41,948 nucleotides of DNA from a virus. Position 1 is the stretch's first letter; every line of letters starts with the position of its first letter. The notes beneath the pieces were generated by a model. That model was not told where the DNA came from and did no database searches. It saw nothing but the letters and a program-made list of their open reading frames with translations. Shown piece by piece: positions 6,093-24,979 of the stretch. The DNA lies in IMG/VR virus record IMGVR_UViG_3300044726_000067, positions 1 to 41,948 of that record; one strand, 5' to 3'. The position numbers were made by a program, and so were the translations under genes.

Positions 6093-6295
6093 TGGCAGAC
6101 TACGCCCTGACAGCGACAGAGTATGTAATCCGCACCGAGGATAGTGCGTGCATTCCACCTGACCCTGACAACCGCGACTGGGTCGAGTATCAGGCGTGGC
6201 TCGAAGACGGTGGCGTGCCCGACCCCTACGTTCCTCCTGCAACAACCAAGCCTGCGCCCGCGAAAGCAAAAGCAAAGCCGGGGAGAAAGCGGTGA
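6092..6295 (+). CDS. Small tail-fibre-associated protein
   Basis: 67 residues from ATG 6092 (GTG 6089 is an alternative). The start overlaps the stop of the fibre gene as TGATG. It carries the pattern IPPDPDNRDWVEYQAWLEDG followed by G-x-P-D-P-Y. This I/R-P-x-D-x-x-N-x-D-(W/Y)-x-x-Y-x-x-W-x-x-x-G-x-x-P-x-P pattern is known from short proteins encoded right after phage tail fibres, and from the ends of tail fibre assembly proteins. The C-terminus is a Lys/Ala/Pro tail. It probably helps fibre folding or is a small fibre component; this is inferred from place and motif. Confidence 0.8.
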   Translation: MADYALTATEYVIRTEDSACIPPDPDNRDWVEYQAWLEDGGVPDPYVPPATTKPAPAKAKAKPGRKR

Positions 6296-7959
6296 GCATC
6301 CACCAGCAATTCCGCCGGACGCCGGTGCCGCAGCAGGCGATGCAGCAGATGCAGGTGGCGCAGATCCCGGCGCCGAACCGCGGCATTATCGAGAGCGAGA
6401 ACCTTGCATTCATGCCGCCCGGCGCCTCGCTGGTGCAGGAGAATTGGGTCTCGACCATGCGCGGTGTGCGGCTGCGTGGCGGCTCTATCCGCTGGTGCGA
6501 CCTGCACGCGCTCGACACCACGGTGCCGCCGGTGCCGTCGCCACTGCGTCAGCCAGTGGTCTCGGCATTCGAGTACGTCAGCGGCAACATCCAGCGCATG
6601 TTCGCGGCGCAGCGCACCAAGCTGTTCGACGTCACCGCCGCCGGGCCGATCTTGGTCAAGGACAATCAGACGTCCGGCAATTACGCCGCCTCGCAGATGG
6701 CGAACGCCAGCGGCGACTATCTGACCGCGGTCAACGACGGCGGCGACTTTCCGCTGCGGTACGACGGCACGACGTGGACGGTGTTGGACGCCAACCAGAT
6801 CAGCGGGCCGGTCGGCTCGCGGGTCGAGCACGGCCGCAACCTCACCTACGTCTGGAAGTATCGTAACCGGCTGTTCTTCATCGAGGGCGCCTCGATGAAC
6901 GCGTGGTATCTGCCGCTCAACGCGATCAACGGCACGCTGGCCATGATCCCGCTGTCAGGCGCCGCAACCAAAGGCGGCCGGCTGCTGTTCGGTGCGACGT
7001 GGTCTTTGGATGCCGGCGACGGCATCGACGACAAGATCGTCATAGGGACCGACCTCGGAGAGTTGCTGATTTTCACGGGCAGCAACCCGGCTGACGCCGC
7101 GAACTGGCGCCAGGAGGGCCGCTACGAGGTGGCGCCGCCGCTGGGCATGAACGCGCACCACCCGATTGGCGGCGACCTGCTGCTGGCGACGGTCGAGGGC
7201 GTCGTGCCGGTGTCGGCAGCAATCTCCAAGGACAGCACCCAGCTCGAACTGGCAGCGATCACGCGCCCGATCAAAAACACATGGCGCGCGGAGATGTTGG
7301 AGAAGCGCCAGCACCCGTGGTCGATGGAGCGATGGGACGAGTATGGCGGGCTGTTCGTAACGTGGCCCTACGGCAAGCCCGGCGAGCAGCGATGCGGAGT
7401 GGTCAACATCTCGACCGGCGCGTGGTCGAAGATTGTCGGATGGGACGCGACCTGCTTCTGCCGGCTGCGCGGCGACATGTTCTTCGGCACGCAGGACGGC
7501 ATCATCATGCAGGCCGACCGCACTGGCTACGACGACGGCAACCACCGCAAGATCCCGTATGTCGCCACCCTGGTCGGTGGCTGGGAGCAATTCCGCACCG
7601 GCGGCGGCACTGTGGTGTGGCGGCAGGCGCGGGCATCGTTCTTCGCCAGCAACGGCGAGCCGTTCCAGCCGCAGCTGTCGGCGACCACCGACTACCTCAT
7701 CAAGATCCCGACGCCGCCGCCGGCCGGCGCCGATCCTGGTCTGCAAGACGTCTGGGACCAGGGGCTGTGGGATCAGGCCAAATGGGACCAGCCGTCGCTG
7801 GGCGTGCCGGTGGTGCGCAACACCGGCTGGGTGTCGATCGGCGAGACCGGCTACACCCATGCACCGATCATACAGGTGACGGTGGCGCAGCAGGCCACAC
7901 CGAAAGTCGAACTGATCGTAATCGCCGCGACCTACGAGCGCGCCGGTTACGCCGTCTGA
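6292..7959 (+). CDS. Tail hub / packaged-DNA stabilization protein (P22 gp10-like)
   Basis: 555 residues from GTG 6292, which overlaps the previous stop (GTGA) and has GGGAG at 6281. An upstream in-frame ATG at 6196 would bury the start inside the preceding gene and is not preferred. The sequence shows the stabilization-protein pattern: ENLAFMPPGASLVQENWVST near the N-terminus, followed by many short beta repeats (LKYRNRLFFIEGASMNAWY, GLFVTWPYGKPGEQR, LRGDMFFGTQDGIIMQAD). These fit a beta-propeller-like hub that closes the portal channel below the adaptor ring. Order after the adaptor gene is the same as in P22-like heads. Confidence 0.85.
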   Translation: MSIHQQFRRTPVPQQAMQQMQVAQIPAPNRGIIESENLAFMPPGASLVQENWVSTMRGVRLRGGSIRWCDLHALDTTVPPVPSPLRQPVVSAFEYVSGNIQRMFAAQRTKLFDVTAAGPILVKDNQTSGNYAASQMANASGDYLTAVNDGGDFPLRYDGTTWTVLDANQISGPVGSRVEHGRNLTYVWKYRNRLFFIEGASMNAWYLPLNAINGTLAMIPLSGAATKGGRLLFGATWSLDAGDGIDDKIVIGTDLGELLIFTGSNPADAANWRQEGRYEVAPPLGMNAHHPIGGDLLLATVEGVVPVSAAISKDSTQLELAAITRPIKNTWRAEMLEKRQHPWSMERWDEYGGLFVTWPYGKPGEQRCGVVNISTGAWSKIVGWDATCFCRLRGDMFFGTQDGIIMQADRTGYDDGNHRKIPYVATLVGGWEQFRTGGGTVVWRQARASFFASNGEPFQPQLSATTDYLIKIPTPPPAGADPGLQDVWDQGLWDQAKWDQPSLGVPVVRNTGWVSIGETGYTHAPIIQVTVAQQATPKVELIVIAATYERAGYAV

Positions 7960-16354: not shown

Positions 16355-18076
16355 ATGCCACGCGACGGCTCAGGTATTTACTCTCGCCCGCCCGGCACTG
16401 ACGGCGCTCCCGACACCACGATCGAGAGCGCGAAGTACAATGCGTTCGTCGCCGACATAGAGCAGGACGCTAACACTGCACGCCCAATCATCGCTGGCGG
16501 CACCGGTGCGAACAACGCGCGCGATGCAATGGTCACGCTGAAGGGCGAGATCACACAACAGCTCGTCGACAATTACGACATGTACCCGTTTATCTCCGGG
16601 TCATTCTATTCAACGACCGGCGCGACCGCGTCGCCGGTTGCCGGGCACGGGTTTGTCGGGATCTGCTACGCCGCCGACACCAACAATATGGTTCTGGAGG
16701 CGCGCGACCAGACCGACACGGTAGTGCCCGGCCGCAAGTATGCGCGCGAGAAGAAGTCCGGTGTGTGGGGTGCGTGGAAGGTCGACGGCCGCACGATTGT
16801 GGGCGACGCCGAGGGCATTGGTAGCGAAGCCGCCGATATGTTCTTCGGCGTCGAGGGCACCGCGCCGGCGTCCGCGTTTATCGTCAACAGCGAGAGCGAC
16901 AACAGCGGCACCGATTTGCTGCGCGTCACCAAGGCCGGTGCGTTCGAGGTTCGCGGTGTGCCGGGCGGCTACACGGTAGTAGGGCTACACAAATCTGCGA
17001 TCGGGATGGGGACTGGGATCACGGGCTACGATCCTACCGGCAAGGCCCGCTGGCTGATGTACATGGGCGACGGCTCCGCGGAGAGCGGCGCCAACGCGGG
17101 CAGCAATTTCGAGGTCCACCGCTATGACGACGCTGGCACCTATCTCGGTCGAGCGATGCAGATCGAGCGCAGCACCGGCAAGACGGCGGTCGGCCCGCTC
17201 GACGTTGGTGGCGACATCCGCGGGACCGGCCACGTCCGGGTGAACAACGACGTCACCCTTGGGATGGGGGTGGCCGCCGGCGGCGTGGTTTATTTTGGCA
17301 ACACCGGCGCACAGAGGATTGCTCACGACGGCACCCAATTTCAGGTGTACGGCGGTGACTTTAAGATCAACACCAACGCCATTGTCGGCGCACAGCTCCG
17401 GGTCGGAGCGAACGGTGCCGACGGCGTCATCCGCTTCACCAGCGGCGCCGGCGATCCGTACATCTACTACAACGGTAATTTCAATTTTAACGGCGGCGAC
17501 GTCTACACCGGCTCGCGGTTTATCAGCAACAGCGACATCCACTGCAATTCGAGCCTCGCCTTCGGTCCGGTCGGCACCGTCAAGTATATGCAGCTCACCG
17601 GCAGCAACCTGAACATCTACAACATGGTGGTTTCACCGAACGCCGGTCTGACCATGACCGGCGGGCAGATACTGCCGGTGTATAACGCCACGGGGATCGC
17701 TGCCGGGGCTGGCAATGCGGGCCTGGAGGTCAGGAGTAGTGGCAGTAACGACGCGTGGGTGTCGTTTCACCGCACTGGCGTGTTCGCCACTAACTTTGGG
17801 CTGTCGAGCGACCACAACCTCTGGCTTGGCGGCTGGTCGTTTGGCGCGGTCGCCTACAAGGTTCTCACGACGCGCGAGGTTGGCGCAGTCGTCAGTTCGT
17901 TCCGAACGGTCTACGCCGGCGACTTTGAGCACGTCTACCAAAACGGCATGCAGGAGCCCTACGGCTCGACGGCGGCCGTCAGCGGATGCCAGCAAGGCAA
18001 CGGCATCGCCACGTTCCGCTACCGCTATCATCAGATGCTTCAGAACGGCGCGTGGGCCAACATCGAGGCTTCGTAA
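16355..18076 (+). CDS. Tail fibre or tail spike protein
   Basis: 573 residues, ATG at 16355 behind GGGAGATAGCG. The N-terminus has the pattern DGSGIYSRPPGTDGAPDTTI, then SAKYNAFVADIEQDANTARP and IIAGGTGAN, common at the start of phage tail fibres. The central 400 residues are rich in Gly, Asn and Thr with repeating beta-like units (VYFGNTGAQRIAHDGTQFQV, YIYYNGNFNFNGG), fitting a trimeric beta-rich fibre. The C-terminal part ends FRYRYHQMLQNGAWANIEAS. It is a second candidate receptor-binding protein besides the adaptor-fibre fusion. No S74 domain of its own is present. Confidence 0.85.
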   Translation: MPRDGSGIYSRPPGTDGAPDTTIESAKYNAFVADIEQDANTARPIIAGGTGANNARDAMVTLKGEITQQLVDNYDMYPFISGSFYSTTGATASPVAGHGFVGICYAADTNNMVLEARDQTDTVVPGRKYAREKKSGVWGAWKVDGRTIVGDAEGIGSEAADMFFGVEGTAPASAFIVNSESDNSGTDLLRVTKAGAFEVRGVPGGYTVVGLHKSAIGMGTGITGYDPTGKARWLMYMGDGSAESGANAGSNFEVHRYDDAGTYLGRAMQIERSTGKTAVGPLDVGGDIRGTGHVRVNNDVTLGMGVAAGGVVYFGNTGAQRIAHDGTQFQVYGGDFKINTNAIVGAQLRVGANGADGVIRFTSGAGDPYIYYNGNFNFNGGDVYTGSRFISNSDIHCNSSLAFGPVGTVKYMQLTGSNLNIYNMVVSPNAGLTMTGGQILPVYNATGIAAGAGNAGLEVRSSGSNDAWVSFHRTGVFATNFGLSSDHNLWLGGWSFGAVAYKVLTTREVGAVVSSFRTVYAGDFEHVYQNGMQEPYGSTAAVSGCQQGNGIATFRYRYHQMLQNGAWANIEAS

Positions 18077-18607
18077 ATGGCAATCATCAATCACGGCAGA
18101 TGGGTGCGCTATCCGCGGCCGGCGGACACCCCCGACGACATCTCGCAGGGTGTCGTGTTTCTGCGTCGCGAAGGCGACGGCAAGGACTGGTACGTCCACC
18201 TCTACGGGAGAAAGATCGGCGACCCGCACAACCCGGCGCCCAAGGTCGATCCCAAGACGCTACTGCCGCTGGCGCAGCAGCCGCCCAGGCCCAAGGGCGT
18301 GTTCCAGAAGGACAGCATCAAGGGCGCCGCGCTGTTTCACGAGCACCTCGGCGTGCATATTGTCGGTGCGGTGACGCGCGACGAGACCGCGATCTTCCCG
18401 TTCAATCAGTATGTGTTCGAGATCACCGACAACGGCAGCAGAGATCCGCAGGCCGAGTTCGGCGGCAGAATATACGACCCGGTGAAGATCAAATTCGGAG
18501 ACCGGCCCGCGCCGACCGAGCCGCCTTCGTCGCCCGCGGTTGTGGCGCTGACCGAGGCGCTGGACGCGGCGCTGAAGCGGATCGAGGTGCTGGAGAAGCG
18601 GCGGTGA
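18077..18607 (+). CDS. Hypothetical protein following the tail fibre
   Basis: 176 residues, ATG directly after the previous stop. It has a beta-rich body (VVFLRREGDGKDWYVHLYGR, IFPFNQYVFEITDNGS) and a short C-terminal coiled coil (LTEALDAALKRIEVLEKRR). The gene follows the tail fibre and precedes the membrane-protein genes, with its stop overlapping the next GTG. It may be a fibre accessory protein. No family is recognised with certainty. Confidence 0.8.
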   Translation: MAIINHGRWVRYPRPADTPDDISQGVVFLRREGDGKDWYVHLYGRKIGDPHNPAPKVDPKTLLPLAQQPPRPKGVFQKDSIKGAALFHEHLGVHIVGAVTRDETAIFPFNQYVFEITDNGSRDPQAEFGGRIYDPVKIKFGDRPAPTEPPSSPAVVALTEALDAALKRIEVLEKRR

Positions 18608-18792
18608 ACAACGTCTCCGACAACCTTGCGAAGCAGGTTGTCGATAGTCTGCGCGCGACGCCGTTTGTGTTGGCGCTACTGGTGCTCAACGTGATCTCGC
18701 TGGCCGGCTTCGCCTTCATCCTGGTGGAGGTGTCGCAGGCGATGGAAAGGCGCGAAGCAATCATCGCGCGGTGCTTGGACAACAGAGGATAG
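18604..18792 (+). CDS. Small membrane protein, holin-like candidate
   Basis: 62 residues from GTG 18604, overlapping the preceding stop (GTGA). Residues 18-41 form one hydrophobic span (PFVLALLVLNVISLAGFAFI), followed by a charged cytoplasmic-type tail (MERREAIIARC). I recognise this type from lysis-region small membrane proteins of Bradyrhizobium-type phages and prophages. Position after the fibre genes and next to a second membrane protein makes holin or spanin-like work likely, but no signature proves it. Confidence 0.75.
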   Translation: MNNVSDNLAKQVVDSLRATPFVLALLVLNVISLAGFAFILVEVSQAMERREAIIARCLDNRG

Positions 18793-18796
18793 CGCC

Positions 18797-19006
18797 ATGA
18801 TTGAGAGCCTGGTTTATTTCGTGATCTACCTGATCGTGATCGGTTTGATTGCGTTTTTGCTGAACTACCTAGTGGACGCAATCCCGCTGCAAGAACCGTT
18901 TCGCAAGATCGCCAAGATCGCGATCATGGTGATCAGTGTGCTGATCCTGATCATCTTATTGTTAAGCCTGATCGGCATTGGCAGCCCTCTTCCACGACTA
19001 AGGTGA
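18797..19006 (+). CDS. Small two-span membrane protein (Thivi_2564-like)
   Basis: 69 residues, ATG at 18797 (AGAGGATAGCGCC upstream). Two hydrophobic spans flank a short loop with the motif NYLVDAIPLQEPFRKI. The pattern of a span, then Y-x-V-x-x-I-P-x-x-x-P-F, then a second span is that of the Thivi_2564 family of small membrane proteins, seen in proteobacteria and in phages. Together with the preceding protein it makes up the probable membrane part of the lysis module; which of them would act as holin cannot be told from sequence. Confidence 0.75.
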   Translation: MIESLVYFVIYLIVIGLIAFLLNYLVDAIPLQEPFRKIAKIAIMVISVLILIILLLSLIGIGSPLPRLR

Positions 19007-19009
19007 CCC

Positions 19010-19138
19010 GTGGCTGACGAACCCGAGAAGATCCCGGCGCCGCCGCTCGTTGTGATCGCGCTGACCATCCCCGATGGTGTGGATATCTCGATCATAATCA
19101 ATGGCGAGCAGTTTCTGGTTGAGCACGAAGACGATTAG
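19010..19138 (+). CDS. Very small acidic protein
   Basis: 42 residues from GTG 19010 with AAGGTGA directly upstream; the upstream gene's stop lies four bases before. The product is VADEPEKIPAPPLVVIALTI, then an acidic end with HEDD. It holds two short beta-like segments. It is placed between the membrane-protein genes and the exported protein gene. The ribosome site and tight packing support expression. No function is known. Confidence 0.55.
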   Translation: MADEPEKIPAPPLVVIALTIPDGVDISIIINGEQFLVEHEDD

Positions 19139-19185
19139 GTAATACCCTGCTGCCGCGCCTTTCCGGCGCAGCAACAGGAGCCATC

Positions 19186-19896
19186 ATGAAACGCCTTCTA
19201 TTCGCGGCGCTGCTTGCGCTCGCGACCGTGCCTGCACACGCCGTCGACATCAATATCCTGACCGTCACCGGCACCTGGGTCGACATCGATCCCAATGCAC
19301 TGCCCGGCTCTTCGGGCCTCGGCACCAGCTCCATCCGCTGGGGCCAGCCCACCAACCAGCCACAATCCGGCTACGACTTCGCCGGTAACGCCCCGCAAAC
19401 CTTCGCGCTGGGCAGCGGAGCAACCCTCGGCACCTTCACCCACATCAACAACCCCATCAACGCCGGGAGCTCAATCACGGGGGCGACGCTCGCCCTTCAG
19501 ATCAGCTTTACGGCGCCTGACTTGTTCGTGGGCACGAAGATAATGAACTCTCAGTTCATCTTCTCGCACAACGAGACGTCCAATGTCGGCGGCAATAACT
19601 GCTGCCCCGACATCGTCACGGCGGTGCTGAACCCCGCTCAGACCGACCTCTTCAGCTTCAACGGTATCGACTACGCCTTTGGCGTCACCGGCTTCCAGGT
19701 CGGCAACACCAACTTTGTGCAGTTCTCCTCCCCAGAGGGTGGCACGAACCAAGCCTTCCTGCGCGGCACGTTTGCTGATGTCACCCAGTTCGCAGTCCCC
19801 GGCCCTGTGGTCGGCGCCGGCATCCCTGGCATCATCGCTGCGTGCGCCGGGCTCGTTGCCCTTGCGCGTCGCCGGCGGCGACAGGCGGCCATCTAA
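19186..19896 (+). CDS. Exported choice-of-anchor K domain protein with C-terminal sorting tail
   Basis: 236 residues, ATG at 19186 behind ACAGGAG. A signal peptide (MKRLLFAALLALATVPAHA) is followed by a beta-rich domain with the features of the choice-of-anchor K family: SIRWGQP, SGYDFAG, LGTFTHINNPI, an ET(P/S)N segment (HNETSN), a Cys pair, and SSPEGGTNQAFL. The end is a short tail: VPGPVVGAGIPG, a hydrophobic span, and an Arg cluster (ARRRRRQ). Such tails, of the PEP-CTERM type, are normally processed by exosortase-like systems in envelopes of bacteria. It is unusual for a phage and lies at the very end of the late operon before two terminators, as an added gene (moron) would. A role in changing the host surface is inference. 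Confidence 0.85.
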   Translation: MKRLLFAALLALATVPAHAVDINILTVTGTWVDIDPNALPGSSGLGTSSIRWGQPTNQPQSGYDFAGNAPQTFALGSGATLGTFTHINNPINAGSSITGATLALQISFTAPDLFVGTKIMNSQFIFSHNETSNVGGNNCCPDIVTAVLNPAQTDLFSFNGIDYAFGVTGFQVGNTNFVQFSSPEGGTNQAFLRGTFADVTQFAVPGPVVGAGIPGIIAACAGLVALARRRRRQAAI

Positions 19897-19900
19897 AGCA

Positions 19901-19987
19901 AACGCCCCGGGCGGAGGGGTCCTCCCGGGGCGTTGCTCTACTGACACAACAAACGGAGCGCCGGAAAAATACCCCGGCGCTCTTTTT
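19901..19987 (+). terminator. Tandem terminators at the end of the late operon
   Basis: The first hairpin pairs AACGCCCCGGG (19901-19911) with CCCGGGGCGTT (19924-19934). The second pairs GAGCGCCGG (19956-19964) with CCGGCGCTC (19974-19982) and is followed by TTTTT (19983-19987), a standard Rho-independent terminator for + strand transcripts. The - strand operon ends at 19995, so the pair may also stop transcripts from the other side. Confidence 0.88.
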
Positions 19988-19994
19988 GCGTCAA

Positions 19995-20375
19995 TCAGCT
20001 TGGTCCCACCAGGATCGATGGCGGTGCCGGCAGGATGACACCGATCGGGCGCCACATGTGCAGGCAGTGCGGGTGGAGGTTGATGCGCGTGAGGCGCGGC
20101 GGATGATACTGGATCACGGTTTCATCCTCGGTCCAGAACAAGTCTTTCACGAAGCACATCTCGTTCCATGTCGGTGTTTGTCTCTTCGACACGCTAACGT
20201 GCTCCCAGCCATAGCCCTCGTCACGCACGAGGCCGGTCGATGCCATGACAAGCAGCTTGGTGCCTTTCGGCCCTCTCAAAGCGAAAGCGCCCATCATCCC
20301 GTAGTCGGGTGTGGAGCCGTACTCACCCTCGCGGATGCGCGCCTTCTCCAGAAGTGGTGGTGGCGTTGCTCTCAT
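19995..20375 (-). CDS. DUF7694-like protein
   Basis: 126 residues, ATG at 20375 preceded by the repeated leader AGGCAGGGATAGTC. The sequence has the pattern of a phage and prophage domain of unknown function: GSTPDYGMMGAF, GWEHVSVS, PTWNEMCFVKDLFW, IQYHPP, then INLHPHCLHMWRP. I recall this as DUF7694. The conserved His, Trp and Cys residues suggest a metal site or a binding pocket, but no activity is known. It is the last gene of the - strand cluster. Its first ten codons are nearly repeated at 21063-21090 at the start of another gene. Confidence 0.8.
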   Translation of the reverse strand: MRATPPPLLEKARIREGEYGSTPDYGMMGAFALRGPKGTKLLVMASTGLVRDEGYGWEHVSVSKRQTPTWNEMCFVKDLFWTEDETVIQYHPPRLTRINLHPHCLHMWRPIGVILPAPPSILVGPS

Positions 20376-22348: not shown

Positions 22349-22585
22349 CTATCGCGCGCCCGGCACGACGCAGCGCGGGTTGCCATCGTAGTCCCATGTC
22401 AGCTGCAACGGCATGGTGCAGCGCCACTCGGAACGCAGGCACACGCCCGAGGGCGCGAACCGCAGGCAGACGAACGCCGCCCGCTGTCCCTCCAGCGGTG
22501 GCGGTGGCGGCGGCACCGGGCGATCGAGCGGCAGGATCGTGCAGCCAGCGCAGGCGGCCGCAAGCAGCGCAGCGTATCTGGACAT
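22349..22585 (-). CDS. Putative small lipoprotein
   Basis: 78 residues from ATG 22585, with TTTGGAGG upstream. The N-terminus MSRYAALLAAACAGC reads as a short signal peptide with a lipobox-like LAAAC/ACAGC ending in Cys at 12 or 15. A Pro run (RPVPPPPPP) and then a Cys-containing body (FVCLRFAPSGVCLRSEWRC) follow. Outer-membrane spanin subunits are small Pro-rich lipoproteins, so an o-spanin-like role is possible, though the gene lies far from the membrane proteins at 18.6-19.0 kb and on the other strand. Entry exclusion is another option. Confidence 0.65.
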   Translation of the reverse strand: MSRYAALLAAACAGCTILPLDRPVPPPPPPLEGQRAAFVCLRFAPSGVCLRSEWRCTMPLQLTWDYDGNPRCVVPGAR

Positions 22586-24512: not shown

Positions 24513-24979
24513 ACCCTGAATGGTCTAAGGACATGGTCGACCGCTTTACTGCGCTCTGCCTGATGCGTGACGCCGGTTCCTATGTCGTGATCGCCGCGAC
24601 CCTGACCGCGGAGTTCGGTATCCACGTCACCAAGAACGCCTGTATCGGCAAGGCCAGGAGGCTGGGCGTGACCAACGGCAACGGTCACGATCGCCACGCC
24701 GCCAGCAGGCGCAAGAAGCCAAAACCCAAGCCGCGCAAGAAGCCGAACGAGCGGCCCGGCCGCAAGCCGGTGACCAGCGAGCGCGCCGCACCGACACCGC
24801 CGCCGCCATCAGTCAGCCTGCCGGGGCAATTGTCACTGTTCCAGCTGGGCCCGCGCGACTGTCATTGGCCATACGGCGACGGCCCGTTCACGTTCTGCGG
24901 CGTACCCACGCACCAGACCGGCGGCCCGTACTGTTCTGAGCATCACCGTGTAGCATTCCCCGGGCTGTACCGCCGATGA
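24509..24979 (+). CDS. GcrA-like cell-cycle regulator
   Basis: 156 residues from GTG 24509, overlapping the previous stop (GTGA). The N-terminal 55 residues match the GcrA DNA-binding fold: W5, then VDRFTALCLMRDAGSYVVIA, and KNACIGKARRLGV. A basic Lys/Arg/Pro linker follows. The C-terminal part has CHWPYGDGPFTFCG and YCSEHHRVAFPG, the Cys/His pattern at the GcrA end. In alphaproteobacteria GcrA binds sigma70 and acts at CcrM-methylated GANTC promoters. A phage copy could redirect host RNA polymerase to phage genes or to S-phase functions. Adjacent genes are replication and nuclease genes, which supports early expression. Confidence 0.9.
   Translation: MNPEWSKDMVDRFTALCLMRDAGSYVVIAATLTAEFGIHVTKNACIGKARRLGVTNGNGHDRHAASRRKKPKPKPRKKPNERPGRKPVTSERAAPTPPPPSVSLPGQLSLFQLGPRDCHWPYGDGPFTFCGVPTHQTGGPYCSEHHRVAFPGLYRR

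Follow-up and report, generated by a model that had tools for sequence, protein, structure and literature searches.

Introduction

Bacterial chromosomes are known to encode exosortase substrates, whose function is mostly obscure. PEP-CTERM proteins have been linked to exopolysaccharide and to floc formation (PMC1569441, PMC9850573, PMC9012009). In the case of phage T5, the exported protein Llp prevents secondary infection as well as non-productive adsorption to debris, and superinfection-exclusion (SE) genes come after the receptor-binding module in T5 and in other coliphages (PMC9586334). A further point of comparison is the peptide-binding domain (PBD) of the RTX adhesins MpIBP and FrhA, which binds C-terminal tripeptides with an optimum at -Tyr-Thr-Asp (PMC12077191). 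Phage envelope effectors and exosortase substrates are each already known, separately. Phages with exosortase substrates as recurrent, tail-swapping cargo were not described in the literature that we searched (open-access papers), the nearest being a comment that hot-spring viruses contain TIGR03118 proteins acquired horizontally (PMC11003980).

Here, we analysed an IMG/VR virus record of 41,948 bases, in the following called the window. It comes from a soil phage and has genes for head, portal, terminase, tail and primase. A preliminary description had placed a choice-of-anchor K protein with a PEP-CTERM-like sorting tail at 19186-19896. This observation is confirmed and its interpretation is partly supported. 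Three points go beyond it: the ectodomain is, by fold and homology, an adhesin peptide-binding domain, the carrier phages look virulent, and the phenomenon is widespread, with exchangeable tails.

Results

Architecture of the encoded protein

The signal peptide, read by eye from the sequence, is MKRLLFAALLALATVPAHA and is followed by V (Table 1). No Cys comes after it, so that the lipobox of a unimolecular spanin is absent. The tail VPGPVVGAGIPGIIAACAGLVALARRRRRQAAI lies at the extreme C-terminus and follows the pattern VPGPxxGAGIPG / hydrophobic / Arg; both the sequence and the AlphaFold model put a TM helix and then a basic cluster at this end.

The anchor-K-like domain and the PEP-CTERM-like tail proposed earlier were both recovered by HMM search, and the absence of such matches, named at the time as grounds for abandoning the idea, was thus not found. 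In detail, NF038131 (choice_anch_K) matched residues 26-190 with 110.2 bits (curated cut-off 30, E 1e-31), and NF038125 (THxN PEP-CTERM) matched residues 6-232 with 97 bits (cut-off 85, E 1.2e-27), spanning profile positions 7-245 of 246, tail included. No family match was obtained in Pfam or PHROG. The near-invariant Pro-Glu-Pro motif is absent from the protein, which has VPGP in its place and no Glu. Because of the HMM scores and the conservation of the tail in other phages described below, a chance origin is excluded.

Table 1. Positions of the features in the window.
Feature	Position	Strand	Remarks
Tail-fibre gene (anchor marker T573), upstream of slot	16355..18076	+	phrog_24210, 3.1e-15
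Three small genes between tail genes and cargo gene	18604..19138	+	include 42-aa ORF
One-TM protein gene	18604-18792	+	no Pfam family
Multi-TM holin-like protein gene	18797-19006	+	no Pfam family
Leader hairpin	19146..19178	+	-21 kcal/mol for 19139-19195
Cargo gene CDS	19186..19896	+	ATG start, 236 aa, secreted choice-of-anchor K / THxN protein, C-terminal sorting-type tail
Signal peptide	19186..19242	+	residues 1-19, AHA before V, no lipobox Cys; read from sequence
Ectodomain, RTX-adhesin peptide-binding-domain fold	19243..19794	+	AlphaFold model, VIA Z, phmmer
Tail VPGPVVGAGIPG + hydrophobic helix + RRRRR	19795..19893	+	same tail in at least 119 viral-contig stretches
First stem-loop 3' of cargo gene	19902..19938	.	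G+C-rich, weak T tail
Second stem-loop	19951..19988	.	terminator-like, between convergent transcription units
First leftward gene, opposite cargo gene at convergent junction	19995..20375	-	
GcrA homologue	24533..24979	+	PF07750, 75.9 bits

In the AlphaFold model the beta-rich ectodomain is predicted confidently, whereas confidence in the C-terminal helix is low. With Foldseek, only one group of structures was reached at E < 0.001, the peptide-binding domains of MpIBP and FrhA, and VIA-align against 6x6q/5k8g/9ybq gave Z values of 17.9-18.6 over 177-179 residues (185 in one row); the best of the remaining structures reached 5.1. Sequence alone pointed to the same domains (phmmer against the MpIBP/FrhA PBD, E 4e-14), and no match to the protein was found in a viral structure library. 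The matched PBD is a single contiguous block of about 200 residues with other sequence on both sides in the chain, as would be expected if it is the ligand-binding domain that buds from an Ig-like split domain. Overall, the modelled ectodomain is by fold and by homology an RTX-adhesin peptide-binding domain. Adhesin domains of this kind are characterised by Ca2+-dependent binding of C-terminal tripeptides, a specificity that the phage domain may keep; a tripeptide-binding domain need not act on phage receptors.

Genomic setting

The cargo gene is, as the preliminary description had it, the last of the late operon, being the final rightward gene before convergent leftward genes. The terminators of its own that it was also credited with are a fair description in that terminator-like stem-loops are present behind the gene, but these occupy the natural end of the late operon as a whole. 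The scan found the second one (about 19951-19988) to be terminator-like on the minus strand; on the plus strand, five T (T5) come next. Neither a good promoter nor a sigma-54 site was found upstream of the gene. The 3' arm of the leader hairpin (19139-19195) extends into its Shine-Dalgarno sequence, and judging from this arrangement translation of the gene could be regulated there. The GC content of the gene is 0.633, compared to 0.644 for the phage, and its GC3 is 0.81 (phage 0.81-0.84).

Two other genes of the window should be mentioned. At 22349-22585 (-), a 78-aa Pro-rich protein without a Pfam family begins with a lipobox-like LLAAAC and is possibly an outer-membrane spanin. The gene at 6196-7959 falls into PHROG 5107, an amidase; in Rhizobium phage RHph_I3_18 the counterpart bears a neck-protein annotation, and the amidase label may be wrong.

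Recurrence in one slot among related phages

Related contigs were gathered by portal and structural-protein searches, and 30 were read over their full or almost full length; with the window counted, the clade set comprises 31 records of sufficient sequence. Secreted proteins with exosortase-type tails, one or two each, are encoded in 14 of these 31 records. Four fragments (L134, L139, L150 and L037) likewise encode tailed secreted proteins. Most carriers have the gene behind small TM genes, at a distance of 1.6-3.7 kb from the start of the tail-fibre gene, and one- and multi-TM genes occupy the equivalent position in relatives; in four records (G016, G037, G043, G044) the distance is 5-10 kb. 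In several relatives the cargo gene stands at the end of the leftward operon, opposite the late operon, and the window differs from them in that its cargo gene closes the late operon itself. As the gene is found there in either operon, the convergent junction appears to be the insertion slot. The time of expression of the cargo gene may differ between phages.

The carrier label changes about 5-6 times on the capsid (MCP) tree. Such sporadic presence between conserved genes is that of a moron, and the earlier suggestion of an added gene holds. Taken together, this is a phage-owned, moron-like cargo gene for what is probably a cell-envelope protein. Among the tails of the relatives, a cistern-family PEP-CTERM model is over its cut-off in three phages and the canonical PEPxxWA-CTERM model in L150, and canonical PExxxW tails are present in L150 and G017. 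Small Rz1-like lipoproteins are separately encoded beside the tailed-protein gene in relatives. One integrase-bearing relative without a tailed protein (G023) encodes a 48-aa signal-sequence peptide in the same slot (rotated 2095-2241, -).

Tyrosine or serine recombinases were found in none of the 14 carriers and in 8 of 18 other phages (17 records, 7 of them with a recombinase, plus RHph_I3_18), which gives a Fisher p of 0.004 when relatedness is ignored. Being without integrases, the carriers look virulent, which argues against lysogenic conversion.

A tail class spread over viral contigs

The pattern VPGPxxGAGxPG, equivalent to 19 specified bases, was scanned over the IMG/VR contigs and occurs in at least 119 viral-contig stretches. 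All 80 loci that were read have it as an in-frame C-terminal tail, 27-48 residues before the stop, and nearly all complete ORFs among them start with a signal peptide. Several tail-bearing contigs lie outside the clade of the window and have portal, terminase, primase or tail-spike genes of their own. The residues V, P, G, P, G, A, G, P and G of the tail are invariant across unrelated ectodomains, and most of the VPGPxxGAG proteins have no match to a CTERM model. The canonical pattern PExxxWAMM was found in 84 viral-contig stretches, some of which may be prophage flanks.

In bacteria, VPGPxxGAG was found in 0 of 249 genomes of one order and in 0 of 44 others, with 5 of 5 positive-control phages recovered. 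By these counts the class is strongly phage-enriched within the sample, and the true hosts may be outside it. A tail profile run on 398 genomes of the phylum gave weak matches, the best of which was spurious when read, and tblastn with the tail only found no match in phages and plasmids. The window protein as a whole has no relative among isolated phages and plasmids (tblastn), and none came up in two peptide-pattern scans of IMG/VR. Its cellular homologues are two proteins from Burkholderiales MAGs (37-39% identity) with the tail VPEPATLGLIG..RRRKR.

Exchange and uniformity of tails

Clustering of the ectodomains gave 51 groups, the largest being A with 35 and B with 32 members, and tail classes are mixed in these two as well as in the next five. 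Family A has 23 VPGPxxGAG and 12 PExxxWxM tails; in family B there are 25 VPGPxxGAG, 4 PExxxWxM, 2 VPLPA and 1 other. Beyond the tail, family A has no NCBIfam match and family B no Pfam match, and single family B members likewise matched nothing in NCBIfam beyond the tail. The fold of family B gave weak CBM/lectin-like matches (Z 7.9, below the safe level). The alignment of family B shows LGGQNW..NDGPDSFF and an invariant CxxC.

Every record with two to three tailed proteins has a single tail class: 8 are VPGPxxGAG-like, about 9 PExxxW and 2 PLPA, counts which include two near-duplicate pairs and two records (L316, L342) that were assigned by eye, the regular expression having picked up a PVP ahead of the motif. 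The two to three genes are clustered, for instance in L316 (2802-6177) and L139 (15107-16456), and likewise in L303, L304, L325, L328, L342 and L343, and the clustered proteins are mostly of differing ectodomain families. At L439:1157-1930 there is a hybrid tail, VPGPTVGAVPEPATWAMM..., in which a VPGPxxGA start passes straight into a PEP-CTERM tail; it looks like a trace of tail exchange.

Exchange of tails between ectodomains, together with one class per record, is what chiefly indicates that a class-specific host factor reads the tail. It fits with tails that are matched to one sorting enzyme per host.

Host and sorting enzyme

GcrA is not known from outside the Alphaproteobacteria, and the GcrA gene of the phage therefore points to an alphaproteobacterial host. 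This backs the host of the preliminary description at the level of the class. The order that it named, Rhizobiales, is suggested only by the nearest isolates, Rhizobium phage RHph_I3_18 and Bradyrhizobium phage ppBjS10J-1; among prophages, the closest major capsid protein shares 54% identity. Exosortase is present in 14 of 249 genomes of the sampled order, and choice_anch_K occurs there only in two very long open frames. A profile from 13 exosortase loci detected no homologue among the phage sequences, and any sorting enzyme must consequently come from the host. No cognate enzyme for the VPGPxxGAG tail was found.

Discussion

The explanation that we put forward, with doubt slightly outweighing confidence for the whole of it, is an envelope protein of the lytic infection that is sorted by an exosortase-like host enzyme and lowers phage adsorption. 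In a probably strictly lytic infection, the host Sec system would export the protein, and the C-terminal helix and Arg cluster would hold it at the inner membrane; export and the membrane stop follow from the protein architecture. A host exosortase-type sorting protease would then recognise the VPGPxxGAG motif, a step suggested by the behaviour of the tail, and would place the protein on the cell surface or the exopolysaccharide. There, the ligand-binding ectodomain could occupy or remodel surface structures, so that fewer further phages adsorb, be they competitors or own progeny meeting infected cells and debris. The outcome would be a lytic conversion, functionally like that of phage T5 Llp. 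Of these steps, placement at the surface is likely and cleavage by an exosortase-like enzyme is probable; blocking of adsorption is possible, and distinctly more tentative. Against this explanation speak the absence of the VPGPxxGAG tail from the sampled bacterial genomes, the low frequency of exosortases in the sampled order, the missing Glu of the motif and the failure of most VPGPxxGAG proteins to match a CTERM model. The exclusion of other phages envisaged in the preliminary description is plausible on this analysis, and display on released envelopes found no support.

The main rival, unlikely in our view but to be taken seriously, is an action on the extracellular matrix. Phage adhesins or lectins would cross-link host PEP-CTERM proteins or compete with them, and through altered flocs or biofilm infected cells would be retained or progeny released. 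Such an action is favoured by the ties of PEP-CTERM proteins to exopolysaccharide and flocs (PMC1569441, PMC9850573, PMC9012009), by the adhesin domain of the window protein and by the lectin-like resemblance of family B. However, virulent-looking carriers would have little time to build a matrix, no enzymatic domain was found, and the family B matches are below the safe level. It is rather improbable that the tail is a generic C-terminal stop-transfer anchor that needs no sorting enzyme and leaves the protein in the inner membrane, facing the periplasm. Although most VPGPxxGAG proteins match no CTERM domain model and about 290 bacterial genomes yielded no instance of the motif, nine residues invariant across unrelated ectodomains exceed what a membrane anchor needs. 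The occurrence of canonical PEP-CTERM tails in its place on identical ectodomain families and the uniform class per record also speak against such an anchor. Titration or inhibition of the host sorting enzyme by excess substrate, with depletion of host surface proteins, would agree with a substrate-like tail on many unrelated ectodomains and with its matching per record; yet the ectodomains are conserved families and not filler, and the tail alone would be enough, which makes this very improbable.

A role in the adjoining lysis cassette, as a unimolecular spanin or disruptin, is suggested by the signal peptide and C-terminal TM segment, which recall u-spanin topology, and by the small holin-like TM genes that precede the cargo gene. 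This possibility is only marginally less remote than titration, and the spanin reading was rejected: the window protein and the clade carriers that were read have no lipobox, the ectodomain has an adhesin fold, relatives have their separate Rz1-like lipoproteins alongside, and the gene is missing from about half of the clade. Lastly, bacterial chromosomes are known to encode these domain families (NCBIfam models, MAG homologues), which could hint at host DNA contamination or a mis-assembled host segment, a concern already raised in the preliminary description. It is refuted by the related phage records, many of which carry a comparable gene in the same slot; moreover, GC3 is phage-like and unrelated tail-bearing contigs carry phage hallmark genes. 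We give contamination practically no weight.

Returning to the sorted envelope protein, we lean slightly towards a broader view, in which a general surface-display cassette of ligand-binding ectodomains and exchangeable, enzyme-matched tails is carried by many unrelated phages whose bacterial hosts have exosortases. The tails would include the phage-enriched VPGPxxGAGxPG class without a known cognate enzyme. If true, a virus would use host protein sorting to convert the surface of cells that it is about to kill, and these proteins would form a new class of phage envelope effector. The tail would define a new CTERM class and allow a search for its enzyme; used as a sequence marker, it may reveal the sorting system of uncultured hosts. 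As the same ectodomain comes with different tails, the phages would also provide a natural experiment on exosortase specificity.

Compared to known systems, the window protein resembles PEP-CTERM / exosortase (EpsH) substrates, in particular the NF038125 THxN family (Haft et al. 2006, PMC1569441), in its signal peptide, beta-rich ectodomain, proline motif, TM helix and Arg cluster. Unlike these, it is phage-encoded, VPGPxxGAG replaces PEP, the gene is the last of a phage operon and no sigma-54 site was found upstream. T5 Llp/Cor (PMC9586334) is alike as a small exported phage protein with its gene beside receptor-binding genes in a virulent phage, and for the latter two reasons Llp is the closest functional precedent; Llp is, however, a lipoprotein acting on a TonB-dependent transporter, whereas the window protein has a larger ligand-binding domain and an exosortase-type tail. 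With the PBD of MpIBP (6x6q, 5k8g) and FrhA (9y9w, 9ybq) it shares the fold (Z about 18), the sequence similarity given above and the conserved THxN and HNET segments. In those adhesins, giant proteins secreted by the type I route, the PBD is inserted into a split domain, whereas in the window it is a free-standing, secreted 20-kDa protein with its own anchor.
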